This document shows, piece by piece, positions 9,770 to 35,992 of a DNA stretch of 36,528 nt. Under the pieces are notes generated by a model, which saw only the letters and a program-made list of their open reading frames with translations, was not told the DNA's origin and did no database searches. This stretch comes from Pirellula sp. (GTDB lineage Bacteria > Planctomycetota > Planctomycetia > Pirellulales > Pirellulaceae), in contig JAJTEK010000025.1 in NCBI GenBank assembly GCA_021299695.1, forward strand, positions 1 to 36,528, read 5' to 3'. Numbering within the stretch: position 1 is the first letter of the stretch; each line of letters starts with the position of its first letter. A program made the translations under genes and the position numbers.

Positions 9770-9829
9770 GTTGAAGGTTTAGAGCTGAGACGCGTCCTTG
9801 CCCTCAACCTTCAACGCTCAACCTTCAAC
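9770..9829. repeat. inverted and tandem simple repeat after the outer-membrane factor gene
   Basis: CTCAACCTTCAAC occurs twice (9803-9815 and 9817-9829), and GTTGAAGGTT at 9770-9779 is complementary to its end, giving a 10-bp perfect stem. The second copy runs directly into the stop codon of the outer-membrane factor on the minus strand. It may work as a transcript end, and it resembles the repeat within pump 1. Confidence 0.7.
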
Positions 9830-11337
9830 TACTTCTGTCCGAACGTCAATCCGCGAAGCGAATCACTGCCGCTTCGATCGATAACCGCGTCCAAAGATCC
9901 TGAGAGAACGAAGCCATCAACTTTGGCTCGCGCCGAAGCAAGTTGCGATTGAGCATTCACATACTGAAGATTCGATTCGAAGTACGTTCGCCGCGCAACC
10001 AACAATTGGATGAAATCCATCTCGCCGGCTTTGTAAGCCGTTTCCGCGAGCGTCAAAGCCTCTTTGGCACCGGGTAGAATGTCCGCTCCATAAACATTTA
10101 CCGCTTCCAACGATGTCTCGAAATCGCTTGAAACGATGGCGAGCCTAGCTCGAATCGCATTCTCGATCCGTTTGGCTTCCATCACAGCTCGGCAGTATTC
10201 TGCCCTTGCGGCTGCGATATTCCCTTGATTCTTATTAAAGACTGGAATCGGTAAGCCAACTTGCAAGTTCATCATGCCCGAGTCCGTGCCATTATCGTAC
10301 CCTGCACCAAACTGAGTCGTAACATTGGGCACCGCTTGAACTCCATGTCGAGCGAGTTCCGCCCGTGCTTGGCTGATCCTAGCCTGGGACGCTGCGTACT
10401 CTGGGCTGGAAGCAACTATGGTCGATGCCACACTATCCCAGCTCATCGTTTCGGACGTCAATGGAAATTCGGTGACCAGTGGCATTGGCGTGAGTCCTTG
10501 CATACCGGCAGTTGCCGCGATTTCCCGCCAGGCTGCGTCGTAGCGAGCTTGGGTTTGTCGATATGCAAGATCAATCTCATTACGTTGGACTTTGGTTTGC
10601 AAAACATCAATCTTCGACCCTTCGGCCGCTTTCAATCGCTGTTGAGCCAGCTCAAAACCCTTGTCCATCAAGGCGCGAAATTCCTTGATTAAGTCAAGCT
10701 GTTTTTGATAACCAAGGGCCTGATAGTAAAGAGTCTGGATATCGGTCGACACTCGCAGCTTTTGAGCTTCCAGTTCTTGCAATTGAGCTCGCAACGCTTC
10801 GTTTTGAACGCGACGATTGAGCTCGAGTTTTCCAGCAGTTACGAATTCTTGCTCAGCAAATATGGTATGTTGGTCTGTCCCACGATCAGCAAGCTGTTGT
10901 CCCTGGTAGCCGACCGTAGGGTTCGCGTAAAGGCCGACCTGTGTTCGATATCCAGCCGCCTTTTGAGTCGTAGCCGCAAGCTCTTTCACGGCGGGATTGT
11001 TATCGAGCGCAAGAGTCACTAACTGCTCTAACGTCATGCCATTTGATGTAGGCAACGGCGGCTCGATCGGCGTGTTTTGTGGAATCGTATCCACGGCTGC
11101 GACCACTGCGTTGCCTTCGCCCGAAGCGTTATCGTCCAACAACCCACTGGCTGGTATCACCGCCGGTTCTGCCAAAGGCGATAGGTCACTTCTCGATATC
11201 GCCGTTTGGGTTTCTGCCGGCGTGACATGCGAGGCATGTGTGGATCGTCGATCCATTGATCGACGATGGTTATCTGACGCGCATCCGCCGCAGCCGGCCA
11301 ACAAGGCGGCTGCTAAATAAAAGAGGTTGTTTTTCAT
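9829..11337 (-). CDS. outer-membrane factor, TolC/CusC-like lipoprotein
   Basis: 502 aa from ATG 11337; GTG 11346 is an alternative start. The lipoprotein signal ends at LLAGC (Cys16). A low-complexity stretch of about 80 residues follows, then the repeated helical OEP layout: NPAVKELAATTQKAAGYRTQVGLY in the first half and SSPEYAASQARISQARAELARHG in the second, each with long helices that would build the trans-periplasmic barrel. Length fits the CusC/CzcC family. Role: the outer-membrane exit duct for RND pumps. It is the only such gene in the window although three pumps are present, so it may be shared. It stands alone between two small Cys-rich or His-rich genes. Confidence 0.9.
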   Translation of the reverse strand: MKNNLFYLAAALLAGCGGCASDNHRRSMDRRSTHASHVTPAETQTAISRSDLSPLAEPAVIPASGLLDDNASGEGNAVVAAVDTIPQNTPIEPPLPTSNGMTLEQLVTLALDNNPAVKELAATTQKAAGYRTQVGLYANPTVGYQGQQLADRGTDQHTIFAEQEFVTAGKLELNRRVQNEALRAQLQELEAQKLRVSTDIQTLYYQALGYQKQLDLIKEFRALMDKGFELAQQRLKAAEGSKIDVLQTKVQRNEIDLAYRQTQARYDAAWREIAATAGMQGLTPMPLVTEFPLTSETMSWDSVASTIVASSPEYAASQARISQARAELARHGVQAVPNVTTQFGAGYDNGTDSGMMNLQVGLPIPVFNKNQGNIAAARAEYCRAVMEAKRIENAIRARLAIVSSDFETSLEAVNVYGADILPGAKEALTLAETAYKAGEMDFIQLLVARRTYFESNLQYVNAQSQLASARAKVDGFVLSGSLDAVIDRSGSDSLRGLTFGQK

Positions 11338-11406
11338 TTTGTCCACATCCAGCCAACATCAAGACAATCGCTCACACCATAAAACGTTGATACAGTGAGG
11401 CTCCGC

Positions 11407-16016: not shown

Positions 16017-16049
16017 TTAAATCTCCATCGGCTTTGCCGAAACAAGGGG

Positions 16050-19286: not shown

Positions 19287-19295
19287 TACAGTCTC

Positions 19296-21978: not shown

Positions 21979-22024
21979 TTCATTTTCCCGTAAAAATGGC
22001 ACTGGTATATGATATCATTCTTTG

Positions 22025-22040: not shown

Positions 22041-22144
22041 TCAAGTGTTGGATGCCGAGAAGGCTGCAATACTTCACGGAAATTTCGATCCGTTGCCATC
22101 TACTTCGCATCCTTCTTCTGATCATCGGAAAAGCTCACATCGTG

Positions 22145-22208
22145 CTTGCGGGTAATTACCCACAAACCAGTTTAAAATTCCTTGGTTTGACTTAACGTCT
22201 CCCGCAAG
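22145..22208. repeat. two-tier inverted repeat
   Basis: The outer arms CTTGCGGG (22145-22152) and CCCGCAAG (22201-22208) enclose inner arms CAAACCA (22163-22169) and TGGTTTG (22183-22189). A palindrome GGGTAATTACCC (22150-22161) overlaps the left side. No poly-T follows closely. It may be a structured RNA or a small repeat element in the 367-base gap between 21978 and 22346; the rest of the gap beyond it and the terminator at 22240 shows nothing recognisable. Confidence 0.5.
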
Positions 22209-22239
22209 CAAGCCAACTCGTTGAAGCCTCCAGGAATTC

Positions 22240-22278
22240 CCAAAAAGCAAATCAGCGGATTGAATAGTCAACCCGCTG
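22240..22278 (-). terminator. intrinsic terminator downstream of the helical His-tailed gene
   Basis: On the minus strand CAGCGGGTTG, a 6-base loop and CAATCCGCTG form a 10-bp stem with one G-T pair (22253-22278). It is followed by ATTTGCTTTTT. It lies about 70 bases after the stop of the gene at 22346 and separates it from metallothionein-like copy A. Confidence 0.75.
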
Positions 22279-22345
22279 AATGCTAGACATTGCATAGTCT
22301 GTCGCAAGAGCAGAAGCCCACCCCAAACAGACTTGGCAAAAAATG

Positions 22346-22945
22346 CTACTTACTGTTTTTGTTTTCAGTACCGCCGTGATCGTGATGCTCATGGTCCGAT
22401 GCTTGGTGTTCATGAGCCGCGTCTTCGTGACCAAGTTCCTTCAGAAGCTTATCGTGCTCTACTTTCATTTGATCGAGCGATGTATGGATTTTGCTGCACA
22501 TCTCTGCGCACATTTTTCCATCTGGCGATGTTTTGCAGCACTCTTCATGGAGAGATTTTTGCACGGTGGTTGCCTGCCCAAGTTGCGTCTCAATCTTCTT
22601 GACTTGCTCGACAACTTTTGGATTGGATGCGTATTCTTGGCGTACGATTGCCATGTCACGCTGGATCGCTTGGAGTTGTTGCCCAAGCATCTGCGATTCC
22701 GCTTGAGTCACCGTTGGCTGGATGACCTGGGCTTGAGTTGCATAACGTTGAATCCCGCGAGAATAATCTCTCGCATGTTGGATGTTTCGCGAAGTGCGCT
22801 GGTTCGCGAAGAAAGGTGCTCCATTGTTTCTGGATACCTTGTCATTGACTCCAGACTGAGCGTGTACTGCTTGCGGAATAGCTAAAGCCAAGCCCGCAAC
22901 AAACGCTAACGAAAGCACAAATTTTCCGATACTCGCAATACTCAT
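22346..22945 (-). CDS. exported helical protein with Cys cluster and His-rich tail
   Basis: 199 aa from ATG 22945 (AGGA six bases upstream; another ATG directly before). The signal peptide ends near VHAQ (about 29). The middle is rich in Gln, Ala, Lys and Glu with long predicted helices (QLQAIQRDMAIVRQEY, VVEQVKKIETQLGQATTVQK). A Cys-bearing turn follows (HEECCKTSPDGKMCAEMCSK), then another helix and a His-rich tail (GHEDAAHEHQASDHEHHDHGG). It resembles in plan the helical periplasmic metal sensors/chaperones (CnrX/ZraP style), but I see no direct sequence match. Metal binding is inferred. A terminator follows. Confidence 0.7.
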   Translation of the reverse strand: MSIASIGKFVLSLAFVAGLALAIPQAVHAQSGVNDKVSRNNGAPFFANQRTSRNIQHARDYSRGIQRYATQAQVIQPTVTQAESQMLGQQLQAIQRDMAIVRQEYASNPKVVEQVKKIETQLGQATTVQKSLHEECCKTSPDGKMCAEMCSKIHTSLDQMKVEHDKLLKELGHEDAAHEHQASDHEHHDHGGTENKNSK

Positions 22946-23141
22946 CATCGTTCCTTTCGAGAACATGCCTTCGGTGCCATCTGTGATGAGATACCGAATG
23001 AAATGGACATTGAGCCGCCACTCGGCCCATGAATATCTGTTAGATGCCCAAAGAGATTGTTTCCTTCAACAAAACGGATGATTTAGAATCAGTTTTGCAA
23101 GTCGAAGCTGCGATCCAAGACCAAACAGCCAGCGGTGGGTG

Positions 23142-23804
23142 TTAGCAATCGCCAACGTATTTGCCGAGTTTGCTTGGCAGAAAAGATGCACTTACCTCGT
23201 ACCGTGCTCGTTTCCAACCAGAAAAAGCTGAGAAGCTAGTTCTTCCGTAAAGCTCAAACCCCATTCGTTGTACTGCTTTAATCGAAGAACTGTTCCTTAT
23301 ATCGGTCGTAAGAATAATTCGGCGGATGCCGTCACCAAGGATCGTTGAAGCGATTCCAGAAGCTAATACTTGGTACAGTCGTTGGCCTCTGCTGGACGAA
23401 GTCACATAGACTGAGAACAGGTAAGCGGTCTCCTGATCAAGGTAGATGGGAAGCCCAGTCCATTCGTGTCCATTACAATTGTGCAGCGCAGGAATATCAC
23501 CACTGCCAAGCCAAGCGTACGCTACCGTGCGTCCGTCTTTTCGTACTGTATAGCAGCGAAATCGCGTACCATCGAGCGATTGAAAGTCGGCTAATCGGAA
23601 CTCAGGGTTACATTCCCTAAGTGAGCCGCATTGATCCTGCCGAAGCATACAAAACTCCTGGCCGCTTGGAAGTACGTACGGTAGATTTGCTATTGTTGTC
23701 GTGTCGCAACCAAATAGCAGACTTCGATCCGCAATGCCAATACGTCTCGATAGCGAGTAGGCGAAGGTATCGAGCTTTGACACAAGACCATTCAAGCTTG
23801 GCAT
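23142..23804 (-). CDS. GNAT-family acetyltransferase
   Basis: 220 aa from ATG 23804, preceded by GGAGG ten bases upstream and starting 22 bases after the stop of the lipoprotein gene. The longer frame to 24002 overlaps that gene and is not protein-like. The C-terminal half has the GNAT core: beta-strand TAYLFSVYVTSSSRGQRLYQ, where SSSRGQRLY is the acetyl-CoA-binding loop in a degenerate form, then GIRRIILTTDIRNSSSIKAV, and the common C-terminal MGFELYGR. The N-terminal 100 residues are less typical. The substrate is unknown. No signal peptide is visible, so it is cytoplasmic. Its place within a metal island is unexplained. Confidence 0.75.
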   Translation of the reverse strand: MPSLNGLVSKLDTFAYSLSRRIGIADRSLLFGCDTTTIANLPYVLPSGQEFCMLRQDQCGSLRECNPEFRLADFQSLDGTRFRCYTVRKDGRTVAYAWLGSGDIPALHNCNGHEWTGLPIYLDQETAYLFSVYVTSSSRGQRLYQVLASGIASTILGDGIRRIILTTDIRNSSSIKAVQRMGFELYGRTSFSAFSGWKRARYEVSASFLPSKLGKYVGDC

Positions 23805-23826
23805 TTCCAGCTTGCCTCCAGAAAGT

Positions 23827-24096
23827 TCATCGACAACAACTGGAACCGCAAGATTCGCTCGACGACTGAGCAGGCATCTCGCTTTTCCCAGGAGACACGG
23901 ATGTGCTCGCATCAGCAATCGAAGGCGGCTTTGAGAAAGACAACTCGCCTGCGGTTGATGCGGTCGATGAAAAGGAGGCAATTGGTACTGGCGATGCCGC
24001 AATCGACTTGTAGCCTGGCCAATTTGATCGGCATCCAGCGTTGTGCGTTATCGCTACTACGAAAAATAAGAGCATCCCTCTCTTGAAACTTTGCAT
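23827..24096 (-). CDS. small lipoprotein with Ser/Pro linker and CCR end
   Basis: 89 aa from ATG 24096 (AAGG five bases upstream; GTG 24102 possible). The N-terminus is MQSFKRGMLLFFVVAI followed by a lipobox-like HNAGC (Cys22; Asn at -3 is unusual). The rest is Ser/Ala/Pro-rich without structure and closes with SESCGSSCCR. No family recognised. It is followed by the GNAT gene with 22 bases between, so the two are probably one transcript. The short Cys end matches the general habit of this island, but no function can be given. Confidence 0.6.
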   Translation of the reverse strand: MQSFKRGMLLFFVVAITHNAGCRSNWPGYKSIAASPVPIASFSSTASTAGELSFSKPPSIADASTSVSPGKSEMPAQSSSESCGSSCCR

Positions 24097-24303
24097 ATTC
24101 ACCTTCCTAGTGTTTGATCAGCATTAGCAAGTGGGTACACTCCGTTGCACCCATGTAGTAGAGAAATATGTCCTGCAGAAATCGCTTCAGTGATGATGTC
24201 CCACAACTGAATTAGACAGAGCAACTGGGACACCTGTACTTAAGGGGTTTGCTTTGAAACAGTTGCCCTGGGAAAGTCGAATCACAAGACACTTTCGAGA
24301 AAA

Positions 24304-24639
24304 CTAACTCAGCTTCTTGGGGCCTTTGGTTGGTGATTTGGGAGGGCACTTCGGACAAGTGCCCTGCTCAACACTAGAATCGTTCGAATGGGATGCGCCA
24401 GACTTGTTATCACAGCAACCTGCATTGCAGCCCTTGGAATCAGCCGCGCAGCAATCGCACTTACAGTCTTCGCAAGTACAGACACCCGTTTCACAGCAGC
24501 ATCCGCCATCTGGGCAGCAGGATTCACAGGCACAAACCTTCGATTCGACAGACAAACTTGACTTGCTTACATAGTTTGCCCCCATAGCCACGCCAAGTCC
24601 AATCAGACACAACAACACGAACGATGCGGCAATCTTCAT
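24304..24639 (-). CDS. exported metallothionein-like Cys-rich protein (copy B)
   Basis: 111 aa from ATG 24639 (AAGGA nine bases upstream). Signal-like MKIAASFVLLCLIGLGVAMGA, then 18 cysteines: VCACESCC, GGCCC, VCTCEDCKCDCC, GCNAGCC and a late TCPKCPPK. It matches copy A (21682) almost residue for residue up to the GCC group, then has its own Ser/Lys/Pro-rich tail. The shared N-terminus and Cys core but different tails suggest duplication and divergence. It is the last minus-strand gene before the divergent + block, with a dyad 35 bases upstream. Confidence 0.8.
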   Translation of the reverse strand: MKIAASFVLLCLIGLGVAMGANYVSKSSLSVESKVCACESCCPDGGCCCETGVCTCEDCKCDCCAADSKGCNAGCCDNKSGASHSNDSSVEQGTCPKCPPKSPTKGPKKLS

Positions 24640-24674
24640 TTCAATTTTTCCTTGTAAACAGACTCGATTCTTTC

Positions 24675-24690
24675 GAAGCACCTAGGCTTC
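24675..24690. promoter_or_regulatory. GAAGC-N6-GCTTC dyad upstream of metallothionein-like copy B
   Basis: A 16-bp dyad with a palindromic CCTAGG overlapping its centre, 35 bases before the start codon at 24639. The same arms stand before copy A (22025) and, with an 8-base spacer, before the Gly/Tyr-rich gene (9600). It is a candidate operator for a metal-responsive regulator not encoded in this window. Confidence 0.45.
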
Positions 24691-25086
24691 ACATTAGTCT
24701 GATGCAACTGCAAAGCTGTTTCTTCACGCAATAGATCGATTTTCTTTCTGTGCCCAACCACCAGCTACGTTTGAGTTTCAACCAGCTTGCTCTCTTTGCT
24801 TCTGTCTTTGGCAGAGAATTTGACCAAAATGGCTTAGATGCCCGAAACTGCCGAATCTTCATAAGACTTCCGAAGTTCGAAGCGATTGAGAATGCGCTGA
24901 TTTTCGAGCTTTCTTGAAATTGGAAGTCCTGAGTTTCTTGAAAACGGGTAGATTAGCGGTAATCCCTACGATCGATGGAGACTTCCACGCGCCGTAGCTA
25001 AAATTATGCAACGCTCGTGAAGGAAACGGCGTCCGGCAGCATCCAATCTGTGTCGCCCCCGAGAAAACCTGTATCTGACGTGCGTT
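24691..25086. other. divergent intergenic region
   Basis: About 400 bases between metallothionein-like copy B (minus) and the + block. It must hold promoters for both directions. I see a GCATCCAA word at 25040-25047 and GGAAAC just before it, but no confident -35/-10 pair. The open frame at 24859-25140 (minus) overlaps the start of the + gene and has no ribosome site or protein-like character. Confidence 0.5.
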
Positions 25087-25572
25087 ATGTTCCGAACGAT
25101 TCTTCATTCTGTTTTGCTGATGGCGGTTGCCTACAGCCAAATTCTGGGTGGGGTTTCGTGTTGCTGCTTAGGTCGATCGTTCCTCGAGAGCATTAGCGGA
25201 AAGCAGTCTGCGACTGCTGAAGCAGATGTTGCGTCATCGAAATCACTTGCCAGTCAGCCGGCCCGATGCCCCAAATGTACTGCTCGTCCGACAGTAAAAA
25301 CGAGTGATTCTGTCCGGTCGGCGGCGAAATCGTTGTTTCCGTCGTGTTTAATCTGTCAGGGTGCTCAATGTATTTGCAGCAAGCAAGTTCTGAGTGCAAG
25401 CGAGCCACCAAAGTCGGTTTCTGTACCCGCGAAGTCCATCGCTTGGGCATGCGTTGCATTTGCATCGATTAAACCTACAGCGACCGCCGTATCGAGCTTT
25501 GGAAAGTTCGAAGTACCCATTCGCTTTGGCGGACACTCTTGGCAGTCGATTGCCTGTGTTTGGAGGAATTGA
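25087..25572 (+). CDS. secreted Cys-rich protein
   Basis: 161 aa from ATG 25087; no clear ribosome site. A signal-like start (MFRTILHSVLLMAVAYSQILGG) is followed by SCCCLGRS, later ARCPKCTARP, LFPSCLICQGAQCICSK and a C-terminal IACVWRN. The plan, a hydrophobic leader with Cys groups spread through about 130 residues, is like that of the proteins at 11407 and 21133, suggesting a common type placed at the head of metal-export modules. No function is known; envelope metal binding is inferred. It is followed after 104 bases by the 57-aa CC protein. Confidence 0.65.
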   Translation: MFRTILHSVLLMAVAYSQILGGVSCCCLGRSFLESISGKQSATAEADVASSKSLASQPARCPKCTARPTVKTSDSVRSAAKSLFPSCLICQGAQCICSKQVLSASEPPKSVSVPAKSIAWACVAFASIKPTATAVSSFGKFEVPIRFGGHSWQSIACVWRN

Positions 25573-25676
25573 GAGTCCAAATAAATTCTCTTTGCGAGTT
25601 TGTTTGGAAGCGTTGCTCATCCGCTATTGGATGGCAACATATCTCTCTCAGTTAATTCAAAAACCATAGGTGAATC

Positions 25677-25850
25677 ATGTTTACGAAAATTGCATTGCTT
25701 GGTCTCGTCACGTTGGCTTCGATCGGTCTTTCTTTCAGCGATAACGCAATCGCAGCGAACGCGTCTTCGATGTCGGCAAAGGGGCAACCCATCTGCTGCA
25801 TGAAGAATGCGTACTGCTGTCTCGACAATCGTTCCTGCTGTCGCCGTTAA
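25677..25850 (+). CDS. 57-aa secreted protein with three CC pairs
   Basis: ATG at 25677 with AGGTG five bases upstream; stop TAA at 25848-25850. A signal peptide (MFTKIALLGLVTLASIGLSF, cleavage near IAAN) leaves a mature peptide of about 30 residues. It contains the regular motif CC-x5-CC-x5-CC (ICCMKNAYCCLDNRSCC) and ends in RR. A strong terminator follows 24 bases later. The regular spacing of vicinal Cys pairs suggests a folded metal- or disulfide-bearing peptide. I know no named family. It is not one of the metallothionein-like pair, whose Cys spacing is different. Confidence 0.75.
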   Translation: MFTKIALLGLVTLASIGLSFSDNAIAANASSMSAKGQPICCMKNAYCCLDNRSCCRR

Positions 25851-25873
25851 ACCTACGGCATAGCTAAGGTCAG

Positions 25874-25919
25874 CCTGCCTGAAGTCTCAAAAGAACTTCG
25901 GGCAGGTTTCACTTTTTTT
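25874..25919 (+). terminator. intrinsic terminator before the sigma factor gene
   Basis: A 12-bp stem (25874-25885 with 25895-25906, one G-T pair) and a 9-base loop are followed by TTTCAC and seven T. It ends 17 bases before the sigma factor start, so sigma operon transcription either reads through or starts inside the terminator region. Confidence 0.85.
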
Positions 25920-25936
25920 GCAGCATGGAGTGAAGA

Positions 25937-26530
25937 ATGCATCGAGCAGAGTCATCCAACTTTTCAGATTCGACATCTGGCAGACCGCCCGATGACGAGT
26001 TGGCAGTTTGGATCAAAAATGCAACGAGCGGAAGTCGCGAGTACCAGAAGCGAATTTATGAGCTTCTGGCTTCGAGGATTTATCGAGTGATTCGAAAGAT
26101 TGTAGGGACCAGCGACGCGGACGATGTGATGCAAGATTTTGTCATCCAGTTGTTTTCGAAGCTTGATCAGTTCCGATTTGAATCCTCGCTAGAGACTTGG
26201 GCTCATCGAATGGCGGTCAATCAAAGTTTGCAGTACTTACGAAAGACCAATCGAGAGGCACAGAGAGCATATAAAGTCGCATTGGGAACCGAAATGTCTG
26301 AAAATCCAAACCGCCAAACCCAAGTCGATGAGGCAGAGATTTTGAACCTTGCGATGGAGAAAATCTCGGGCGAACAGAGGGCAATTCTGCACATGAAGGA
26401 AGTCGAAGGGTTAGGATACGAGGCAATTGCAAGTGTGCTTGGTATTCCTGAAGGAACGGTAGGTTCAAGACTGAACAAAGCAAGAAAAGAACTTAGGACT
26501 TCGCTAATCCAACTGGGTTGGGAGGCATAA
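25937..26530 (+). CDS. ECF RNA polymerase sigma factor
   Basis: 197 aa; ATG with GGAG six bases upstream. Region 2 is clear (SDADDVMQDFVIQLFSKL with the DVMQD core-binding motif and FESSLETWAHRMAVNQSL), and region 4 holds the helix-turn-helix (YEAIASVLGIPEGTVGSRLN). Between them lies a short linker, with no extra domain. The stop overlaps the start of the anti-sigma gene (TAATG), the typical paired arrangement. Role: directs transcription of envelope metal-response genes when released by the anti-sigma. It heads an operon running to 35583. Confidence 0.95.
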   Translation: MHRAESSNFSDSTSGRPPDDELAVWIKNATSGSREYQKRIYELLASRIYRVIRKIVGTSDADDVMQDFVIQLFSKLDQFRFESSLETWAHRMAVNQSLQYLRKTNREAQRAYKVALGTEMSENPNRQTQVDEAEILNLAMEKISGEQRAILHMKEVEGLGYEAIASVLGIPEGTVGSRLNKARKELRTSLIQLGWEA

Positions 26531-27357
26531 TGAAAAATTGCGATTGGATTGAAGAACGATTGTCGGCGTACATCGATAACGAACTCGATGCACAAGAGCG
26601 AACGAATTTCGAGTCGCACTGTGATCATTGCAACGCCTGCCGCGCGTCGATTGTCGAGTTTCAAGCGATAGGTACGCTCATGCGGCAGTCCGAGGCGAGT
26701 GTTGACACCAATTCCCTTTGGGAGCAGGTTGCTCCACGACTGGATAGTGATCGAATCGTCTCGATTCCTTCTAAGCCGTTGCCGAAAAGCTGGATCTATG
26801 CGGTTCTAGTGACGGCCGCCTCTGTATCACTGATCTGGTTTTTTGCGAGGAATCCGACGTCGGATCATGATGCAGGAGAAGCTTCTCATGAACATGCTGC
26901 ATTGGCTGTTGACTTTCAAGAGGTCATCCGTGCAGCTAAGTCGGAGCCTAAGGTAGCAATCGCAAAGTTGGTATCAAAGTATCAAGGAAAGGAACTCGAT
27001 GCCAATGCAACCGAGAGCTACCTTGGCTATGAGCCGGCTGTTTTTAAGGGCATTCCCGAAGGTTTCACTCGAGTATCAACGCATGTGCTCAATATGCCTT
27101 GTTGCAAATGTTCGGCGTCGATATGCGAACGTAATGATGGTACATCGCTGATCCTGTTTGAGCACAAAGATGAACAACCTGTTTGGTTTGGCAGTCTGCC
27201 AGCCATTGAGACCCAGTGTAGCGGCAAGACATGCAAGATTATTGAAGCCGCAGGACAGCTCGCCGTGAGCTGGAAGAACGAAGATCGTCAGTTGACAATG
27301 ATTGGCGCAAACGATATTGCCGAAGTCAACCAGTGGGTGGCTTCAACGAAGTTGTAG
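26530..27357 (+). CDS. anti-sigma factor with Cys-rich sensor domain
   Basis: 275 aa from ATG 26530, overlapping the sigma stop, with GGGAGG four bases upstream. The N-terminal zinc-binding anti-sigma domain has H30-x3-C34-x2-C37 (HCDHCNAC). One membrane helix spans about 88-106 (WIYAVLVTAASVSLIWFFA). The extracytoplasmic part has a short HEHAA stretch and then a domain with two Cys groups: C191, C192, C194 and C199 (MPCCKCSASIC), and C230 and C235 (QCSGKTC), ending in an ANDIAEVNQWV helix like the C-terminal domain of other anti-sigma factors. Inference: direct soft-metal sensing (Cu/Ag/Hg/Cd class) outside the membrane releases the sigma factor. Confidence 0.9.
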   Translation: MKNCDWIEERLSAYIDNELDAQERTNFESHCDHCNACRASIVEFQAIGTLMRQSEASVDTNSLWEQVAPRLDSDRIVSIPSKPLPKSWIYAVLVTAASVSLIWFFARNPTSDHDAGEASHEHAALAVDFQEVIRAAKSEPKVAIAKLVSKYQGKELDANATESYLGYEPAVFKGIPEGFTRVSTHVLNMPCCKCSASICERNDGTSLILFEHKDEQPVWFGSLPAIETQCSGKTCKIIEAAGQLAVSWKNEDRQLTMIGANDIAEVNQWVASTKL

Positions 27358-27390
27358 TTAGTGTTCGTTTTCAAGTATGAAGAGGTTAAG

Positions 27391-27861
27391 ATGATTCGTG
27401 CATTTGGTAAGTTTTTTGTGATCGCTGTTTCGGTTTGTCTGGTTGGATTTTCCTTTGCGGATGAACCACAAAAGGAAAGTCCAGAGCAACGCCGCGAGCG
27501 ACTAAGAATCTCAGTACAAGCAATCTGTCCAGTCTCCGGCGAATCGCTGACTAGCCATGCAAAGCCAGTCAAGATGACTGATCCAGAGACCAAGGAAATT
27601 CTCTATGTCTGTTGCGCAGATTGTTTGAAGTCAAAGCCCGACGCAAAGTATCTCGACAAGATTCGGAGTAACTTTGCGAAGGCTCAAGGGCATTGTCTCG
27701 TGATGACCGACAATGAAGTCTCCGAGAAGTCCAAGCATGGGATTGTGGAAGGTCATTTCGTTTATGTTTGCTGTCCTCCCTGTGTAAAGAAAATGACGGC
27801 TGCGCCAGAGAAATTTCTTGCCAAGCTTGACGATCTTTACGAAGCCTCGCTCAAGAAATAG
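27391..27861 (+). CDS. exported protein with two YHS-like CC-x2-C motifs
   Basis: 156 aa from ATG 27391 (GAGG six bases upstream; a longer start at 27361 is less likely). Signal peptide about 1-23 (ending SFADE). Two related halves: CPVSGESL followed by ILYVCCADCLKS, and later HCLVMTD followed by FVYVCCPPCVKKMTAAPEKF. This is the plan of YHS-type metal-binding domains (CP-x-(S/C)-G ... Y-x-CC-x2-C-x4-F), in duplicate and without the usual His. The lipoprotein encoded next has the same CCPPCV end. Inference: periplasmic metal chaperone for the pump. It is in the ECF operon, 33 bases after the anti-sigma gene. Confidence 0.75.
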   Translation: MIRAFGKFFVIAVSVCLVGFSFADEPQKESPEQRRERLRISVQAICPVSGESLTSHAKPVKMTDPETKEILYVCCADCLKSKPDAKYLDKIRSNFAKAQGHCLVMTDNEVSEKSKHGIVEGHFVYVCCPPCVKKMTAAPEKFLAKLDDLYEASLKK

Positions 27862-27891
27862 TTCCATTCCACAAATAACCAGGGTCCAAAA

Positions 27892-28806
27892 ATGACAAAA
27901 AGCAAATGTCTTCTTTTAAGTTTGGTTGCGAGTTCGGCTCTAGGCGTGCTGTTCCTCGCTGGATGCAAACCAACGAATCAACAGGACGTTTCGGCCGCTA
28001 AGAATTCTCAGAAAGATATGGCTCGAACAAGCCTAACTGCGAACAACAAGACATCCGAAGCGTCGCTGGCTTCGTCCGTGCCGGGAGATTCCGACGCCGA
28101 ACACGGGCACAAAGCCGGTGCACATGGTGGAATCATGGTTTCGTTAGGGCGAGACAGTTACCATGTTGAAGCAGTTGTCGACTCTGAAGGGGCGATTCGA
28201 CTATACACTCTTGGAAAGGACGAGAGTCGCGTCATCGATGTCGAGAGTCAAACGCTGAAGGGATTCGTGAAAGCGGACGGTGATGCGGATTCTAAAGCCA
28301 TTGCCTTCGAGCCGACTCCGCAGGATGGCGATGGCAATGGAAAAACGTCGCTTTTCGTTGGCAAGTTGCCAAAGGAATTAGTCGGCCGAAAACTGGACGT
28401 GACCATTCCGAATATTCGAATTGATGGCGAACGATTCCGGCTTGGATTTGTCTCGGGTGAAGAGAGCCATGGAAATTCTCCCGATATGCCCGATAAGCTG
28501 GCGGATGATGCGGAGAGGGAACTCTATCTTACTCCCGGCGGACGATACACAGCGGCTGATATTACGGCTAACGGAAACGTAACAGCGTCCCAGAAGTTCA
28601 AGGGGATCAAGTCCGCACACGATATGAATCCAAAGCCTGGTGATCGAATCTGTCCCATCACAGAGACCAAGGCGAACCCGAACTTTACTTGGGTTATTGA
28701 CGGCAAACCTTACCAGTTTTGCTGTCCACCCTGCGTTGACGAGTATCTCAAAACAGCCAAAGCTTCATCCGATGCGTTGCCTGAACCCGATTCGTTTGTG
28801 AAGTAG
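27892..28806 (+). CDS. lipoprotein with HGG core and YHS-like C-terminus
   Basis: 304 aa; ATG with a weak AGGG site. Lipobox FLAGC (Cys25). A Ser/Ala-rich linker leads to the core HGHKAGAHGGIMVSLGRDSYHVEAVV, a short form of which is the truncated protein at 2375. A beta-rich middle follows (TLKGFVKADGDADSKAIAF, KELVGRKLDVTIPNIRIDGERFRLGFV). The C-terminus has ICPITETKANPNFTWVIDGKPY then QFCCPPCVDEYL, a YHS-like Cys motif matching the preceding gene. Inference: membrane-tethered metal-binding protein serving pump 3. It lies 15 bases before the adaptor gene. Confidence 0.8.
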   Translation: MTKSKCLLLSLVASSALGVLFLAGCKPTNQQDVSAAKNSQKDMARTSLTANNKTSEASLASSVPGDSDAEHGHKAGAHGGIMVSLGRDSYHVEAVVDSEGAIRLYTLGKDESRVIDVESQTLKGFVKADGDADSKAIAFEPTPQDGDGNGKTSLFVGKLPKELVGRKLDVTIPNIRIDGERFRLGFVSGEESHGNSPDMPDKLADDAERELYLTPGGRYTAADITANGNVTASQKFKGIKSAHDMNPKPGDRICPITETKANPNFTWVIDGKPYQFCCPPCVDEYLKTAKASSDALPEPDSFVK

Positions 28807-28821
28807 TTTGCGAGGTAAGTC

Positions 28822-31047
28822 GTGAGCATATTGAAGAGCGGTCTTTTGAGCATATTTTGGCTAACTACAAGTTCAATATGCTATGCCCACGAGGGTCATC
28901 AACCACTTCCGACAAAAGGAGTTCAAGTCGATACTCAGAACGGTTATGTGACGCTTTCTGGGCAAGCGCGAAGTGCGATTGGGCTTCTGTCAGAAGAGGT
29001 TGTTGTTGGCACAGTTGCTTCGAAAATGAACGTATATGCGGAATCAGTGACTCCTTGGCAGGCCAAAGCGTTTGGGTCAGCTCAGATAGCTGGACGCATC
29101 TCCAAACTTCTTGTTCGACCAGGAGATTTGGTTGAAAAGAATCAGGTAGTCGCCGAGATGAGTAGCAGAGAACTTGAGTTGGTACGACTTGATTTTCTCC
29201 AGGCAAAGAATGATTTAGCTTTAAACCTTCGCCTGTTGGAGATGACAAGACCTTCTGCGCAAGCGGGCGCAGTACCAATGCAGCGTCTTTTGGATATCGA
29301 GAATGCGGTAGAGCAAAGCCGAAATCGCTTGGAGGTATCGGAACTGCGAGCGCGCACGCTCGGAGTTTCACTTCAAAGTTCTCAACTCGATCCCTCGAGC
29401 GAACTGCTTTTCCCTCTTCGATCACCGATTGGCGGACGCATTCTCCACTCCGACTTAGCTGAAGGTAAGTACGTTGAAGCGTTCGAGCATCTTTTTGAAA
29501 TCGTGAATACCGACGAAGTTTGGGTACGCCTCCAATTACTTGAGAAGGACATATTCAACGTTAAAGTGGGCAATCGAGTAAGCGTCCATTTTCCGAGTTC
29601 ATCCCTATCTGTAGAGGGAGTCATCGATCGAATGGACGCGGTTCTCGACTCAAAAACGCAAGTGATATCAGCATGGGTGACATTGAATCATCCTTCGGTC
29701 ATTCCAGGGCTTGTAGGCTCGGCAACGATATACACATCGGAACAAGCGGACACGATTGCAGTTCCGCAACGGGCTATACACAGCGACGGTCTACAAAGCT
29801 ATCTTTTTGTCGAGGAAGCATCGACTCGGTCGACCGCTGAGTATCGTAAGAGGACCGTGCGGCTTGGTAGTCGCAAATTGACGGATGGTCATAGCTCCGA
29901 ATCAATGGTTGAAGTAATTCAAGGGGAGATATTTCCCGGCGATCGAGTCGTTGTTAGAGGCGGCCACGAGCTTTCGAGTTTATTCTTCCTCGGTGTGCTA
30001 AGACTCTCAGCCCAAGAACAGCAACGCTTGGGAATCCGAACGGAGGCTGCTGGTTATCGCGATGTATCAAAAACACTTCAACTTCCTGCGGTAGTTACCT
30101 TGCCTCCCGAAAATCGAAGTGTCCTTACGACGCAGTTGAACGGAACTGTTCAGTCCCATTCGCTAAGTCCTGGCCGGTCTGTGAAAAAAGGCGATAAACT
30201 AATGGAGATCACCTCACCTGAATTCTACAAGCTACAGCTTGACTTGATTAGTACCTCGTTGGACTCAGACTTGTCCCGTCGTCGCGCCGATCGGCTGGAA
30301 AGCGTCAAGGGAGACGCGGTCTCGATGCGCTTGGTTTTGGAGACACGCGCACAAGCGGAGCAACTTGAGATACGTGCCCAAAGCCTGCGACGACAACTCG
30401 CCACGTTGAGTTTATCAGATAGCGAAATCGACTCCATCGCCAATCAACGACGGATACTAGACTACCTGCCAATTCGTGCCAATATCAGTGGGAGAATTGC
30501 CTCATCTGTGGTCACGCTCGGTGAAACCGTAACGGCCAATCAACCTCTTGTAGAAATCCAAGATTTGCAATCGTTTTGGATCGAGGCCCAGGTACCTTCG
30601 AGAGAGGTTGCTTCTATGTCTGTCGATGCAGTTGGAGTAGCATCCCTGCTCGCCGACTCAGAAGTAAGGCTTCCAGTCGTTCTTTCGCGAATTGGGCCAA
30701 CGCTAAGCGAGTCCACAAGAACGCAGCGAATATGGTTCACTCCAAAAACTCCCCGCGTAGACGATTCCAATATCCCACAATTTAGCTCCGGCGCGTTAAT
30801 GACAGTCGGCCTGCCAGTGGGAACCAAGAGTTCGCGTTTAGCAATTCCTGCATCTGCAATTCTCCGTGATGGACTGCACCTTTTTAGCTTTGTTCGAAAG
30901 AACGACGGCAATATGGAGCGACGACGCGTAACTATTGGTCAGACCGATGGACAGTATACCGAGATTGTTTCTGGTATCGAAGCTGGTGAGTCGGTTGTAA
31001 CCGTTGGTAGTCGAGAGCTGCAGACGGCCTTCGCATCTTTGAGGTAG
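28822..31047 (+). CDS. tandem double RND adaptor (two CusB/HlyD modules in one chain)
   Basis: 741 aa from GTG 28822 (GAGG six bases upstream), almost twice the size of a normal adaptor core. After a signal-like start and HEGHQ come two complete modules in one frame. Module 1 spans about 40-385 (SAQIAGRISKLLVRPGDLV, hairpin helices, SPIGGRILHSDLAEGKYV, beta-barrel, end VEVIQGEIFPGDRVVVRGG). Module 2 spans about 391-741 (LSAQEQQRLGI, TTQLNGTVQSHSLSPGRSV, helices, ANISGRIASSVVTLGETV, end IVSGIEAGESVVTVGS). No stop or frame change lies between. RND pumps bind six adaptors per trimer, so a fused pair would give three chains per pump, each occupying two unlike sites. It precedes pump 3 by five bases. 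Confidence 0.9.
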   Translation: MSILKSGLLSIFWLTTSSICYAHEGHQPLPTKGVQVDTQNGYVTLSGQARSAIGLLSEEVVVGTVASKMNVYAESVTPWQAKAFGSAQIAGRISKLLVRPGDLVEKNQVVAEMSSRELELVRLDFLQAKNDLALNLRLLEMTRPSAQAGAVPMQRLLDIENAVEQSRNRLEVSELRARTLGVSLQSSQLDPSSELLFPLRSPIGGRILHSDLAEGKYVEAFEHLFEIVNTDEVWVRLQLLEKDIFNVKVGNRVSVHFPSSSLSVEGVIDRMDAVLDSKTQVISAWVTLNHPSVIPGLVGSATIYTSEQADTIAVPQRAIHSDGLQSYLFVEEASTRSTAEYRKRTVRLGSRKLTDGHSSESMVEVIQGEIFPGDRVVVRGGHELSSLFFLGVLRLSAQEQQRLGIRTEAAGYRDVSKTLQLPAVVTLPPENRSVLTTQLNGTVQSHSLSPGRSVKKGDKLMEITSPEFYKLQLDLISTSLDSDLSRRRADRLESVKGDAVSMRLVLETRAQAEQLEIRAQSLRRQLATLSLSDSEIDSIANQRRILDYLPIRANISGRIASSVVTLGETVTANQPLVEIQDLQSFWIEAQVPSREVASMSVDAVGVASLLADSEVRLPVVLSRIGPTLSESTRTQRIWFTPKTPRVDDSNIPQFSSGALMTVGLPVGTKSSRLAIPASAILRDGLHLFSFVRKNDGNMERRRVTIGQTDGQYTEIVSGIEAGESVVTVGSRELQTAFASLR

Positions 31048-31052
31048 TTCAC

Positions 31053-34000
31053 TTGCTCGATACCATTATACGTTTTTCACTTCAAAACCGCGCCATCGTC
31101 GCGATTGCGTCTTTGCTGGTGATGTTAATTGGAGCATCACTACTTCAGACAATGCCAGTCGATGTTTTCCCCGATCTAAATCGCCCGACGGTCACGATTA
31201 TGACCGAGGCACCGGGATTCGCGCCAGAAGAAGTGGAGGTGCTAGTAACTCGCCCCATCGAGTTGCTGCTAAATGGTGCGACGGGTGTAAAACGCGTTCG
31301 CTCTTCTTCAGCGATTGGTTTATCAATCATCTGGGTCGAATTCGAGTGGGGCACGGACATATTTATAGACCGTCAGATCGTCAACGAAAAGCTTCAACTA
31401 GCCCAGTCGAAACTACCACCTAACACGAATCCTACTCTTGCACCCATTTCGTCAATCATGGGCGAAATCATGCTGTTAGCATTGCGTAGCGATTTCAAAC
31501 CAAACACACCGGATGAAGCCAATGCGAAAGCGATGGAACTTCGGACGATTGGCGAGTTCACGGTCCGAAATCGTCTACTAGCGGTTGAGGGCGTGTCTCA
31601 AGTCTCCGTAATGGGAGGAATTCTGAAGCAGTTCCAAGTGCTAACTTCCCCCTCGCGTCTAGCTGCTCGCAACGTGACATTGGCACAACTAACAGATGCA
31701 ACGACGAAAGCCAACGTTCTCGCTGGCGGTGGTGTGATGAGCCGCGGTGAGAAAGAATCGTTGCTTCGAATTCAAGGGCAGTCTCTAACGCTGGACGAAG
31801 TAGCAGCGACTCCCATTCTCTGGCGCGACCAAGTGCCAATTCGCATCGGCGATGTGGCTGACGTGAGGCTCGGTGGGCCAGTTAAACGCGGCGATGCTTC
31901 CGCTGTAGTGAAGATCGAACCGGACGTGAACTTTGCGGTGAGTCATGACGCTACCCATGCGCACATGAACGATGGTTCGCACCTTTCTCCCAAGTCGTCA
32001 AGTCAACAGTCGCATTCCCATGCAAAGCCCTACCAAGAGTTGCGAGGCGGTACGGCGGTCATGCTGACGATACAGAAACAGCCAGAGGCTGACACGATCA
32101 AACTTGATCACAGGATCAATGAGGTGCTCGTCTCGCTTCAAAAAGAATTACCAGACGATATCAAAATTGAATCCGAGATTTTTCGCCAAAGTCACTTCAT
32201 TGAAGCAGCGGTTGACAACGTCAGCGAAGCGGTACGCGACGGTGCGATTTGGGTCGTAGTGATTCTGTTCCTTTTGATGGGCAACTTTCGCACTAGCATC
32301 AGCTCACTAACGTCTATGCCGCTATCGATCCTATTGACAGTAATCGTTTTCTATATGTTTGGAATCACGATCAACACGATGACTTTGGGGGGGATTGCCG
32401 TTGCGATTGGCGACCTAGTGGATGACTCAATCGTTGATGTTGAGAACATTTACCGACGATTGCGTGAGAATAAGCAGTTACCTTCAGATTCTCAGAAACC
32501 GGCTCTAGAAGTTATCTTCTTGGCTTCCAGTGAAGTCCGTAACTCCATTGTTTATGCGACGCTAATTGTGGTTCTGGTAGTATTGCCGTTGTTTATGATG
32601 GCAGGCATCGAAGGACGATTGTTCGCTCCTCTTGGGGTCGCTTACATCGTGGCATTACTCTGCTCCTTGGTGGTTTCATTAACTTTCACACCCGTACTTG
32701 CAAGCGTTCTACTACCTCGCGCACCGTTTCTCGCTGAAAAACGCGAACCATTCATCATGCGTTGGTTGAAACACTGGGACGAGCGCGTACTTCGCTGGAC
32801 GCTTAACCGCCCTCGAACCGTACTTGCTGGTGTTAGTGTTTTCGTCTTATTGAGTTGTCTAACACTGCCATGGATGGGAGGCGAATTTCTGCCTCCGTTC
32901 AATGAAGGAACAGCAACTATCAATTTACGTCTTGAACCGGGTACTTCGCTGGATGAGAGCCAGCGAATCGCTAGTGGGGTAGAATCGATTTTGCTTGAAG
33001 TACCCGAAGTACTGTCAGTTGCACGCAGGACGGGGCGCGCAGAATTGGATGAGCATGCAGAAGGTGTGAACAATACAGAGTTCGAGGTGCGATTCGCTCA
33101 GCACAAGACAGAGAAAGCAGGTTGGCTGAACACTATCCTGCGAGCCATTCCGATCGCGCATCTTTGGAGTTTTGAGTACCATGGGCGACCACAGGAAGTT
33201 GTGATCGCCGATCTGCGAGAACGAATATCGAGTATTCCTGGTGCGGCAGTAAATATCGGCCAACCGATCTCGCACCGACTGGATCACATGATGTCTGGAA
33301 TTCGTGCTCAGATCGCTGTGAAGGTGTTTGGCCCGGACTTACGAGAATTGCGAACTGCGGCATACGACGTCCAGGCACGCATGCAAGAGATCGAAGGGGT
33401 AGTTGACCTTCAAATCGAACCTCAGATCGAGATCTCCCAATTGCAAATGCGGGTGAAGCGTGAAGAAGCTTCGCGTTACGGTCTCGCACCCGGCGATGTC
33501 GCCGAAATTTTAGAAACGGCATTCAAAGGCACCATCGTTTCGCAGATCATTGAAGAGGATAAATACTTTGGTTTGGTTGTTTGGTACGACGAGGAGTCTC
33601 GTCGCGATCCGAACGTGATTGAAGAGACAATTCTCGAAACGCCCTCAGGAGCGAAAGTCGCGCTGTCACAAGTTGCAGAAATCCTGGATACGACTGGTCC
33701 TAATGTGCTCAATCGTGAACATGTTCAACGACGAGTCGCCGTTTTCTGCAATGTCCAGGGGCGAGACTTGGCGAGTGTTGTACGCGATATCAAACTAGCA
33801 CTCCAGCCGGTTGAGCAATCTCTTCATGCGCTGCCAGGTGAGTATTATCTCGACTACAGCGGACAATTCGAAGCTCAGCAGCAAGCCACCTATAGACTAT
33901 GGGGATTTGCACTACTGAGTATCGTCGGCGTCTATCTGCTGCTGATGAAAGCCCTCGGCTCGCAGCGTTCTGCACTTCAGGTAATTGTGAACGTTCCATT

Positions 34001-34487
34001 GGCAGCGCTGGGCGCGATTGTGGCGCTCCTGATTGTGAATAAACCGGAAGCTTCGGAGTTCGCGGGCCAAGCATGGTATCTCTGGCCTGGTATCTGGATA
34101 CAGGCAACTCATTTATCTTTGGCGCATTGGGTTGGATTCATCACGCTCATAGGCATTGTTAGTCGTAACGGCATCATGATGATCTCGCATTATCAACACT
34201 TGATGGAGGTTGACGGCATGCCATTTGGGAAAGAAATGATTATCCGTGGAAGCCTAGAGCGCCTTGCACCAGTGATGATGACAGCGATGACCAGCTTTGT
34301 AGGACTGCTTCCTTTATTGTTCGGGTACGGCGAACCTGGCAAGGAGATTCTTTATCCGCTTTCCGTCGTATTGTTTGGTGGCATGATTGCATCAACCGTT
34401 CTAGACCAAATCGTTACTCCTGCACTTTTTCACCTTTTTGGCTCTGGGCTATCCAGGTCAGACCAAGTGAGTTCACCGAATGCTTAA
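31053..34487 (+). CDS. CusA/CzcA-family RND efflux pump with His-rich insertion (pump 3)
   Basis: 1144 aa from TTG 31053 (GAGG eight bases upstream, five bases after the adaptor stop). Signatures: LLQTMPVDVFPDLNRP and the TM4 motif AIGDLVDDSIVDVEN (D457, D458, E464), the same class as pump 1 and lacking the first acidic residue of the Czc triad. It is about 60 residues longer than usual. The main insertion (about 288-331) follows VKRGDAS and carries six His (SHDATHAHMNDGSH, QSHSHAK); a second small one lies near GWLNTILRAIPIAHLW. Substrate unresolved; the ECF and Cys sensors suggest Cu/Ag-class metals. Its stop overlaps the next start by 8 bases. Confidence 0.95.
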   Translation: MLDTIIRFSLQNRAIVAIASLLVMLIGASLLQTMPVDVFPDLNRPTVTIMTEAPGFAPEEVEVLVTRPIELLLNGATGVKRVRSSSAIGLSIIWVEFEWGTDIFIDRQIVNEKLQLAQSKLPPNTNPTLAPISSIMGEIMLLALRSDFKPNTPDEANAKAMELRTIGEFTVRNRLLAVEGVSQVSVMGGILKQFQVLTSPSRLAARNVTLAQLTDATTKANVLAGGGVMSRGEKESLLRIQGQSLTLDEVAATPILWRDQVPIRIGDVADVRLGGPVKRGDASAVVKIEPDVNFAVSHDATHAHMNDGSHLSPKSSSQQSHSHAKPYQELRGGTAVMLTIQKQPEADTIKLDHRINEVLVSLQKELPDDIKIESEIFRQSHFIEAAVDNVSEAVRDGAIWVVVILFLLMGNFRTSISSLTSMPLSILLTVIVFYMFGITINTMTLGGIAVAIGDLVDDSIVDVENIYRRLRENKQLPSDSQKPALEVIFLASSEVRNSIVYATLIVVLVVLPLFMMAGIEGRLFAPLGVAYIVALLCSLVVSLTFTPVLASVLLPRAPFLAEKREPFIMRWLKHWDERVLRWTLNRPRTVLAGVSVFVLLSCLTLPWMGGEFLPPFNEGTATINLRLEPGTSLDESQRIASGVESILLEVPEVLSVARRTGRAELDEHAEGVNNTEFEVRFAQHKTEKAGWLNTILRAIPIAHLWSFEYHGRPQEVVIADLRERISSIPGAAVNIGQPISHRLDHMMSGIRAQIAVKVFGPDLRELRTAAYDVQARMQEIEGVVDLQIEPQIEISQLQMRVKREEASRYGLAPGDVAEILETAFKGTIVSQIIEEDKYFGLVVWYDEESRRDPNVIEETILETPSGAKVALSQVAEILDTTGPNVLNREHVQRRVAVFCNVQGRDLASVVRDIKLALQPVEQSLHALPGEYYLDYSGQFEAQQQATYRLWGFALLSIVGVYLLLMKALGSQRSALQVIVNVPLAALGAIVALLIVNKPEASEFAGQAWYLWPGIWIQATHLSLAHWVGFITLIGIVSRNGIMMISHYQHLMEVDGMPFGKEMIIRGSLERLAPVMMTAMTSFVGLLPLLFGYGEPGKEILYPLSVVLFGGMIASTVLDQIVTPALFHLFGSGLSRSDQVSSPNA

Positions 34488-35583
34488 GACTACTTTGGCA
34501 GCTCTTCTAATATTTGTTCCCGCTTTGGTCTCTGGTTCCGAACCTTTCACGATCTTCTCGGGAAGCAGCGAGAGATCACCGAAACAACCGCAAGCGAGTA
34601 TGGACTCGAGGGGTGTCGCACATGTTACATTCGGCGTTGGAGATGACGTTTATTACTGCAGAGTTGGATCGGACGAGAAGCCCTCACCGCTCGTCGCCTT
34701 TAGGGTACCTAACATGTCTCTCGGAATGCGAAGAGGTCCTCGGATTGCTCATGCCGGCGATTCTATTGTCATCACTGCAATTGGAGGTCCGAAGGGTAAA
34801 GGCACTGATGGGGACGTTTTGGCGTACCGCACACTGGACGGTGGAAAGAGCTGGCTTGGCCCAGTAAAGGTCAACGACATTGAGGCCTCGGCGCGGGAGG
34901 GCCTGCACGCAATGACATCGAGTAACGATGGAACATTGTGGTGCGTTTGGCTTGACCTCCGTGCGAAGCGGACTCAGCTCTTTGCCTCGAAATCGATCGA
35001 TCAAGGGGCAAGTTGGAGTAAGAATCAGTTGGTTTACCAATCGCCCGATGGAAGTATCTGTGAGTGTTGCCATCCATCGGTTGTGGCCGAAGGTAATTTC
35101 GTTCACATCTTGTTTCGAAACTCTTTAAAGGGGAATCGTGACATGTATCTTGTTTCTTCCAACAATCAAGGAGAGACATTTGGCATCGGAGAACGACTTG
35201 GACTCCAACATTGGAGCTTAAATGCTTGCCCAATGGACGGAGGCATGTTGGCGATCGCACCGAAGGGCGAAGTTGTTTCCGCTTGGCGTCGTGGCGGTAC
35301 TATCTTCACGTCCGTTGGAGAGGCCTCGCTGGAAACCATGTTGGAGCACGGTGAGCAACCGTGGATCGCAAGCGGCCCGAGCGGGACTTACGTCGTTTGG
35401 CTCACCAAACGCGACGGCCAATTGCGACTGGTGAAGCTTGGAAATGGCAACTCGAGAATAATTTCTGAAAACGCTCGAGATCCAATCGTCGCGGTTGGTG
35501 ACGGAAATGAATCGCAAGTTTTCGTGTTTTGGGAGCAGCGGTCCGGCGACCAAGTATCTATCCAGTGCCAGTTAGTCAAGTAG
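34480..35583 (+). CDS. exported sialidase-like beta-propeller with CECC motif
   Basis: 367 aa; ATG overlaps the pump 3 stop. Signal peptide MLKTTLAALLIFVPALVSGS. The mature part has BNR/Asp-box-like repeats (LDGGKSWLG, SIDQGASWSK, SNNQGETFG) spaced as in six-bladed propellers of the sialidase superfamily. The Arg triad needed for sialidase catalysis was not identified, so an enzyme is not claimed. Residues 194-198 read CECCH (SICECCHPSV), unusual for the fold and a likely metal site. Translational coupling to the pump suggests a part in metal export, perhaps receiving metal in the periplasm. It ends the operon. Confidence 0.8.
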   Translation: MLKTTLAALLIFVPALVSGSEPFTIFSGSSERSPKQPQASMDSRGVAHVTFGVGDDVYYCRVGSDEKPSPLVAFRVPNMSLGMRRGPRIAHAGDSIVITAIGGPKGKGTDGDVLAYRTLDGGKSWLGPVKVNDIEASAREGLHAMTSSNDGTLWCVWLDLRAKRTQLFASKSIDQGASWSKNQLVYQSPDGSICECCHPSVVAEGNFVHILFRNSLKGNRDMYLVSSNNQGETFGIGERLGLQHWSLNACPMDGGMLAIAPKGEVVSAWRRGGTIFTSVGEASLETMLEHGEQPWIASGPSGTYVVWLTKRDGQLRLVKLGNGNSRIISENARDPIVAVGDGNESQVFVFWEQRSGDQVSIQCQLVK

Positions 35584-35608
35584 CGTCGAATCGATCGATA
35601 CCAGGTTG

Positions 35609-35626
35609 GCTCGCCCGGTGGCGAGC
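35609..35626 (+). other. 7-bp hairpin after the operon
   Basis: GCTCGCC and GGCGAGC pair perfectly around CGGT, 26 bases after the propeller stop. There is no T-run behind it, so it would act at most as a Rho-type or processing end. Confidence 0.5.
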
Positions 35627-35970
35627 GTGGAGAATCCGAAACATGCACGCTAATCTAGCTGCTTTCCAACAAGCGTTGCTTCCCAACTATGGAAAGAATA
35701 GCAATTCAGAGCGTCGCTTTGATCGAATGGCTTGGCAATAGGCTGGTGAAGACAAACGGGGAAATGGCTAACAGATCGCGTCTTCCTCTTGATGCGAAAG
35801 AGCATCGTCGCTAAAATCATCAACAGAGGGTGTTAACCCATTGTTCGAACCTCTTCGTAGAGAAACAGACCGAGCGGGTCTCGAAATCCGCAAGTCCTTT
35901 CAAGTAAAGGGTTTGCGAATGTCGAGCGCAGAGAGTATTGTTACGAAGAGGGTTGCGCTCGCGGAGCTTT

Positions 35971-35992
35971 CGTCAAAGTTCGAACTTTGACG
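35971..35992. repeat. perfect 22-bp palindrome
   Basis: The sequence around the central TTCGAA (CGTCAAAG... and its exact complement) is self-complementary over 22 bases with no spacer. It lies 13 bases before a terminator stem and about 280 bases before the transposase remnant. It may be a protein-binding site or a mobile-element end. Confidence 0.85.

Follow-up and report, generated by a model that had tools for sequence, protein, structure and literature searches.

Pumps of the RND type with a single kind of adaptor (AcrA, for example) carry the same protein at both adaptor positions, and separate mutation of the two positions needs an engineered tandem. Tandem AcrA constructs were reportedly described by Xu in 2011 and by Athar in 2023. 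Two reviews record a working engineered tandem AcrA and an assembly shifted towards 3:(3+3):3 (PMC4446572, PMC13328181), and in such reviews the functional unit is an adaptor dimer. TriA and TriB of Pseudomonas aeruginosa TriABC-OpmH share 36% of their sequence and are separate proteins that have different roles in the service of one pump, and a natural fused adaptor, DSY0927 of Desulfitobacterium hafniense, has been predicted for an ABC-type transporter (PMC4338810 for both and PMC4446572 for DSY0927). In a 2026 review, the assignment of roles to two unlike adaptors in a hexameric ring is said to be "not clear" (PMC13328181).

We analyzed a stretch of 36,528 nucleotides from Pirellula sp. (contig JAJTEK010000025.1; hereafter, the window) that encodes a protein with two adaptor modules beside an RND pump. 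The protein resembles DSY0927 in that two different adaptor modules form one natural chain, and it is a fused adaptor in the same sense; it differs in its RND partner and in having a hairpin in both modules, whereas DSY0927 is linked to an ABC-type transporter in a Gram-positive bacterium and its N-terminal half lacks a coiled coil (PMC4338810). Like TriA and TriB, it brings two unlike adaptors to one RND pump, but in one chain rather than as separate natural proteins. Engineered tandem AcrA is likewise a covalent adaptor dimer and, according to the reviews, works with an RND pump, but it is man-made and consists of AcrA alone, whereas the protein described here is a natural fusion of unlike modules.

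Results

One Intact Frame Encodes Two Unlike Adaptor Modules

The tandem adaptor gene (28822..31047, plus strand) has a GTG start and encodes 741 aa without an internal stop in its frame. The models PF16576 (HlyD_D23), PF13437 (HlyD_3), and TIGR01730 (RND_mfp) each match two stretches of the protein, and its TIGR01730 score of 212.2 bits against a curated cut-off of 94.9 classes it as an RND periplasmic adaptor. Pfam and NCBIfam matches, an alignment of one half with the other, and an AlphaFold2 model delimit module 1 (28942..29988, plus strand; about residues 41-389) and module 2 (29989..31044, plus strand; about residues 390-741). The two halves share 89 identities over 358 columns (25%); their alignment scores 247, against 42 on average and no more than 80 in 200 shuffles of one half. 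RND periplasmic adaptors have one module per chain, but here the adaptor domain set (lipoyl/barrel-sandwich, hairpin, β-barrel, and membrane-proximal domains) is present twice, as judged from Pfam and the modelled secondary structure. The protein falls below the cut-offs of the models for CzcB/NccB adaptors (TIGR00999, 175 bits against 319.3) and for CusB (NF007303, 57.8 bits against 390). It is the only tandem among the five adaptor matches in the window's own genome, the other four of which lie in frames of 396-588 aa. The locus is one intact frame with two complete, unlike RND-type adaptor modules, and on both counts (two complete modules in one polypeptide, and a common layout with little identity) the original prediction was right.

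AlphaFold2, run with an alignment of 66 rows, gave a model of the whole chain with a mean pLDDT of 88.2 and a pTM of 0.78, in which there are two sets of lipoyl halves, α-hairpin, β-barrel, and membrane-proximal strands. The modelled hairpins of module 1 (29167..29358, plus strand; residues 116-179, helices 116-147 and 153-179) and module 2 (30217..30405, plus strand; residues 466-528, helices 466-494 and 502-528) have similar lengths, and over the 66 aligned relatives the hairpin segment of module 1 spans 64-66 residues and that of module 2 spans 64-69. Neither module conserves the RLS motif of the hairpin tip, and the two tips are unlike each other.

The top Foldseek matches of the model are ZneB (3lnn) and CusB (3ne5), heavy-metal RND adaptors that have one module per chain as against two here. 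Each match covers about 350 columns, the length of one module, and superposition over the full chain is poor (for ZneB, rmsd 14 Å and TM by target 0.52). A sequence search of solved structures also placed ZneB first, and it placed 6vej_P second. This 695-aa PDB chain, which we take to be an engineered TriA-TriB fusion, is the only solved match, among those listed, with two such adaptors joined in its molecule name; it is absent from the best 50 of 387 Foldseek matches.

The Modules Most Likely Arose by an Old Duplication

We built a tree from nine single adaptors and 30 examples each of module 1 and module 2, several of these rows lying on long branches. The first modules group together (SH-aLRT 96), and a branch with support 74 has the second modules on one side. 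Over 66 proteins, the distances between first modules correlate with those between second modules (Mantel r 0.91, a value reached in 0 of 999 permutations). Because of this correlation and the grouping in the tree, we conclude that the pair has been inherited together since before the sampled planctomycete lineages split.

The original prediction held that the duplication was old or that the modules came from two genes. Its claim of age stands, and the tree fits a single ancient event: the pair most likely arose by one old internal duplication. A fusion of two different single adaptors, with no duplication in place, would give the same function as the assembly proposed below, and we consider it unlikely. 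It would account for the low identity of the modules (25% in the window protein and an average of 26.8% in 30 proteins), which is near the 23% that modules share with the nine single adaptors, and for the two single adaptors that stand beside modules in a free quick tree. However, when the 60 modules were held together against the nine singles, the log-likelihood was 16 units above that of the free search and the constraint was not rejected (p-AU 0.83), in a comparison that draws on nine singles and a module 2 branch with support 74.

A Conserved Linker Joins the Modules

The inter-module linker (29959..30036, plus strand; residues 380-405) includes a modelled helix at residues 381-388. From G380 to L393, all 66 aligned full-length relatives have 14 residues; among 10 distant rows, seven share this length, two have 10 residues, and one has 12. 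The mean conservation of residues 380-405 (0.668) is the highest of 11 elements, the next being a lipoyl half of module 1 (0.657). Pairwise comparison of five related sequences (ten pairs, 26 codons) showed changes at 0.11-0.28 of the non-silent sites of the linker, a divergence lower than that of module 1 in 9 of the 10 pairs and lower than that of module 2 in all 10. Silent sites are near saturation, and dN/dS was usable in one pair of the ten, that of the window and L037 (0.07 over all and 0.13 for module 2). The length, conservation, and divergence of the linker fit an element kept by selection, not a mere passive joint.

The conservation of the linker bears on whether the chain stays whole. 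If it were cut in the periplasm, a refuting condition that the original prediction had named, two separate adaptors like TriA and TriB would result, and the fusion would only equalise their amounts. TriABC, with two unlike adaptors per pump, is a precedent for the products (PMC4338810), and the span is below 14 residues in 3 of the 10 distant rows. Nevertheless, we regard cutting as very improbable: the linker is short, constant in length in all 66 relatives, marginally the best conserved of the elements compared, and modelled at a pLDDT of 81 (residues 381-390) and 70 (residues 391-400).

The path of the linker also bears on an arrangement in two storeys, in which one module of each chain would lie in the ring while the other would stack above it or bind metal, and the duct would thereby reach through a wide periplasm. 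The membrane-proximal domain of known adaptors sits on the pump, and it is this domain that module 2 lacks at four loci from our screen of related genomes (L031-L034), where the ORFs comprise 687-945 aa and the match stops short of it, at residue 638-670. Module 2 thus appears not always to need this last domain, and the truncation may show which module must touch the pump. However, the hairpins are nearly equal, the linker runs from one membrane-proximal domain to the other, and module 2 is whole in the 66 aligned rows (although these were chosen as full-length), all of which makes a two-storey adaptor a distinctly poor prospect. The truncated adaptors form a sister group, and the same genes were recovered a second time as L133-L136.

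At the other end of the chain, a conserved segment, HEGHQPLPTKG (28888..28920, plus strand; residues 23-33), directly follows a likely signal-peptidase-I site, which we placed by eye; the residue before it (residue 22) is A in 51, G in 12, and a gap in 3 of the 66 rows. Residues H23, E24, G25, H26, L29, P30, and G33 are kept in 66 of 66 relatives, and H23 and H26 also in all 10 distant rows. Residues 19-30 were modelled at a pLDDT below 50. The segment could possibly supply metal ligands at the mature N terminus.

The Tandem Adaptor Is Encoded with an RND Pump

The listed start of a CusA/CzcA-like RND permease gene (31053..34487, plus strand; 1144 aa; PF00873, 758.7 bits) lies 5 bp past the adaptor stop. 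Its product scores 693.9 bits with TIGR00914 (CusA/CzcA permeases), narrowly under the cut-off of 701.45, and is therefore not assigned to that family by score; among solved structures it is nearest to ZneA and CusA. The metal site of CusA has three methionines, M573, M623, and M672. None of the three is kept in the pump, which has N, N, and H at the aligned positions (an alignment to 3t51_A, read by eye). A His-rich stretch of the pump (HDATHAHMNDGSH...SHSHAK) lies between two stretches that align with PDB entries (residues 1-283 and from 354).

As is expected of an RND adaptor, the tandem adaptor is encoded with an RND permease elsewhere too: at 71 of 74 testable GTDB loci, a pump homologue starts no more than 400 bp downstream of the adaptor (median offset 11 bp). 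At the other three, the pump starts 0.8 kb (L050) or 2.6 kb (L053) downstream, or none is seen (L086). A second adaptor gene was recognised at 4 of 80 GTDB loci.

In the window, the cluster runs from the ECF sigma factor through the anti-sigma factor, a 166-aa protein, a 304-aa protein, the tandem adaptor, and the RND pump to a 367-aa protein. Profile matches identify the ECF sigma factor (25937..26530, plus strand), which is the likely regulator, and the anti-sigma factor with zf-HC2 (26518..27357, plus strand). The lipoprotein-like 304-aa protein (27892..28806, plus strand) carries HGHK..HGG and FCCPPC segments and a weak TRASH/YHS-type match, and it is a conserved partner: a homologue is encoded upstream on the same strand, within up to 8 kb, at 73 of 74 testable loci. 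Both segments recur in the alignment of its family, as does an invariant cysteine at the likely lipobox. At E values of up to 1, TRASH matches 38 of 38 family members and YHS 33 of 38, the TRASH match of the window protein being below the cut-off; a fold search with the 304-aa protein gave no match under an E value of 0.001. The 367-aa protein, encoded directly after the pump (34480-35583), has a sub-threshold BNR_2 match, and its homologues occur at some related loci, at times upstream of the adaptor. The HEGH segment, the His-rich stretch of the pump, and the lipoprotein-like protein with its putative metal site point to a metal as the candidate substrate.

No channel gene adjoins the tandem adaptor cluster in the window. 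The sole outer membrane efflux protein among 26 window ORFs scanned with Pfam (9829..11346, minus strand; PF02321, 124.4 bits) is a candidate exit channel for the system. A channel gene was recognised at 14 of 80 GTDB loci by BLAST with the window's channel, a weak method. Among six distant regions with a full tandem, four (L128, L131, L132, and L138) have one gene each for a channel-like protein (weak matches of 44-84 bits), a tandem adaptor, and a pump, the channel-like gene immediately preceding the adaptor gene and the pump gene immediately following it; of the other two, L129 ends at the contig end there, and L130 showed no channel gene.

On its minus strand (3493-21041), the window also encodes a further two RND pumps, each paired with an adaptor, as well as an outer membrane channel, a thioredoxin-like protein, and a P-type ATPase whose HMA match is sub-threshold. 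The adaptors of these other two pumps have one module each (501 and 581 aa).

The Fusion Is Real and Recurs among Planctomycetota

A screen of the window's own genome and 59 related genomes (E values of up to 1e-30) gave matches in 30 of the 60: the window's genome itself, 23 of the 26 others in its genus, and 6 of 23 from the order's other families, with none in the 10 from other genera of the same family. At loci L006-L034 of this screen (n = 29), 24 tandem ORFs reach the last residue and one is cut at a contig end. We also screened GTDB contigs, where 131 stretches with the N-terminal pattern yielded 98 that encode relatives, 80 of which were kept; this set overlaps the first, and as the N-terminal motif was required, its distribution figures are lower bounds or biased. 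Titles name Planctomycetota taxa for 79 of the 80 loci. The search for adaptors of 700-800 aa with two units, which the original prediction had proposed, was borne out, with a full-length tandem ORF (730-861 aa, median 753.5) at 76 of the 80 loci and the other four cut by contig ends. In a draw of 392 Planctomycetota genomes (E values of up to 1e-60, two candidates scored per genome), 12 matched, including the window's own; 11 of these matches span nearly the whole model and one is a single-module adaptor, and these counts too are lower bounds or biased. At one locus (L127 in genome G246), a 429-aa single-module adaptor lies beside a pump that is nearest to the window's second pump. Within Planctomycetota, the family appears widespread yet patchy.

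Other phyla were covered through the GTDB contig screen and a plasmid collection. In the latter, 458 records match; among the best 60 of these, the 39 matches with at least 80% query coverage measure 0.9-1.1 kb each and are single modules, none of them a tandem, and the collection holds no near match of the pump cluster.

Some relatives have tandem matches at several places (two in G006, three in G022, and four, partial or full, in G012), so the system has apparently been copied within these genomes. We rejected three apparent three-module variants, ORFs of 945 (L136), 1069 (L129), and 1155 aa (L128), each of which is a two-module frame with an in-frame upstream extension. We also rejected a case of split halves in G011 (pieces of 441 aa, L030, and 384 aa, L137), as each runs into a contig end.

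Much of the window recurs in other assemblies. Positions 20822-35971 (15 kb) share 99.94% identity with L035, a contig from another Pirellula MAG, and 99.4% with L045; positions 25506-34877 share 96.9% with L036. Such near-identity suggests either recent transfer of a putative metal-resistance island or mixed bins.

The objection that the original prediction had raised against itself, a sequencing or assembly error that joins two genes, might be encouraged by the window's origin in a draft assembly of 229 contigs, but it has next to no likelihood given 0 interrupted copies among the 80 loci (76 fused at full length and 4 cut by contig ends) and a frame that is unbroken in these three near-identical contigs.

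Discussion

We propose, with a probability of about 0.7, that the tandem adaptor is a natural covalent hetero-dimer for a CusA/CzcA-like RND pump of the heavy-metal type and that three chains fill the six adaptor positions. Each chain would be exported and would place its two modules next to each other, so that a pump trimer would receive all six adaptor modules from three chains. The two non-equivalent positions would then always hold different modules, in fixed order and as a covalent pair. By leading from the membrane-proximal end of module 1 to the same level of module 2, the linker would let both hairpins face the channel alike, and the adaptor chain would stand at a stoichiometry of 1:1 with the pump and with the outer-membrane channel.

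We favor three chains because each ORF has two modules that are fused at 76 of 80 loci, with a conserved linker and near-equal hairpins; because a pump adjoins at 71 of 74 loci, a second adaptor gene is recognised at 4 of 80, and the modules co-evolve (r 0.91); and because four of six distant regions are operons with one gene each for channel, adaptor, and pump, and tandem AcrA is reported to work. Side-by-side placement is preferred to stacking because the hairpins are nearly equal and the linker joins membrane-proximal domains.

A fused adaptor is not a wholly new idea, since a natural ABC-type case has been predicted and RND tandems have been engineered. The view, taken at the outset, that a fused tandem adaptor was uncharacterised therefore gives way before DSY0927, tandem AcrA, and 6vej_P. 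It holds in a narrower form: the open-licence literature that we searched yielded no account of an RND pump with a naturally fused adaptor.

The fusion may also bear on how labor is divided within the ring. We suggest, tentatively and at a little less than even odds, that some RND pumps of Planctomycetota have a hard-wired asymmetric adaptor, in which one module would mainly dock the channel, the other would mainly drive the pump, and the gene itself would set the order of the ring. In a natural tandem, the two positions are already separated within one chain, so each could be altered alone, and adaptor, channel, and pump could stand at 1:1:1. If true, the hard-wired asymmetric adaptor would have no described precedent among natural RND systems.
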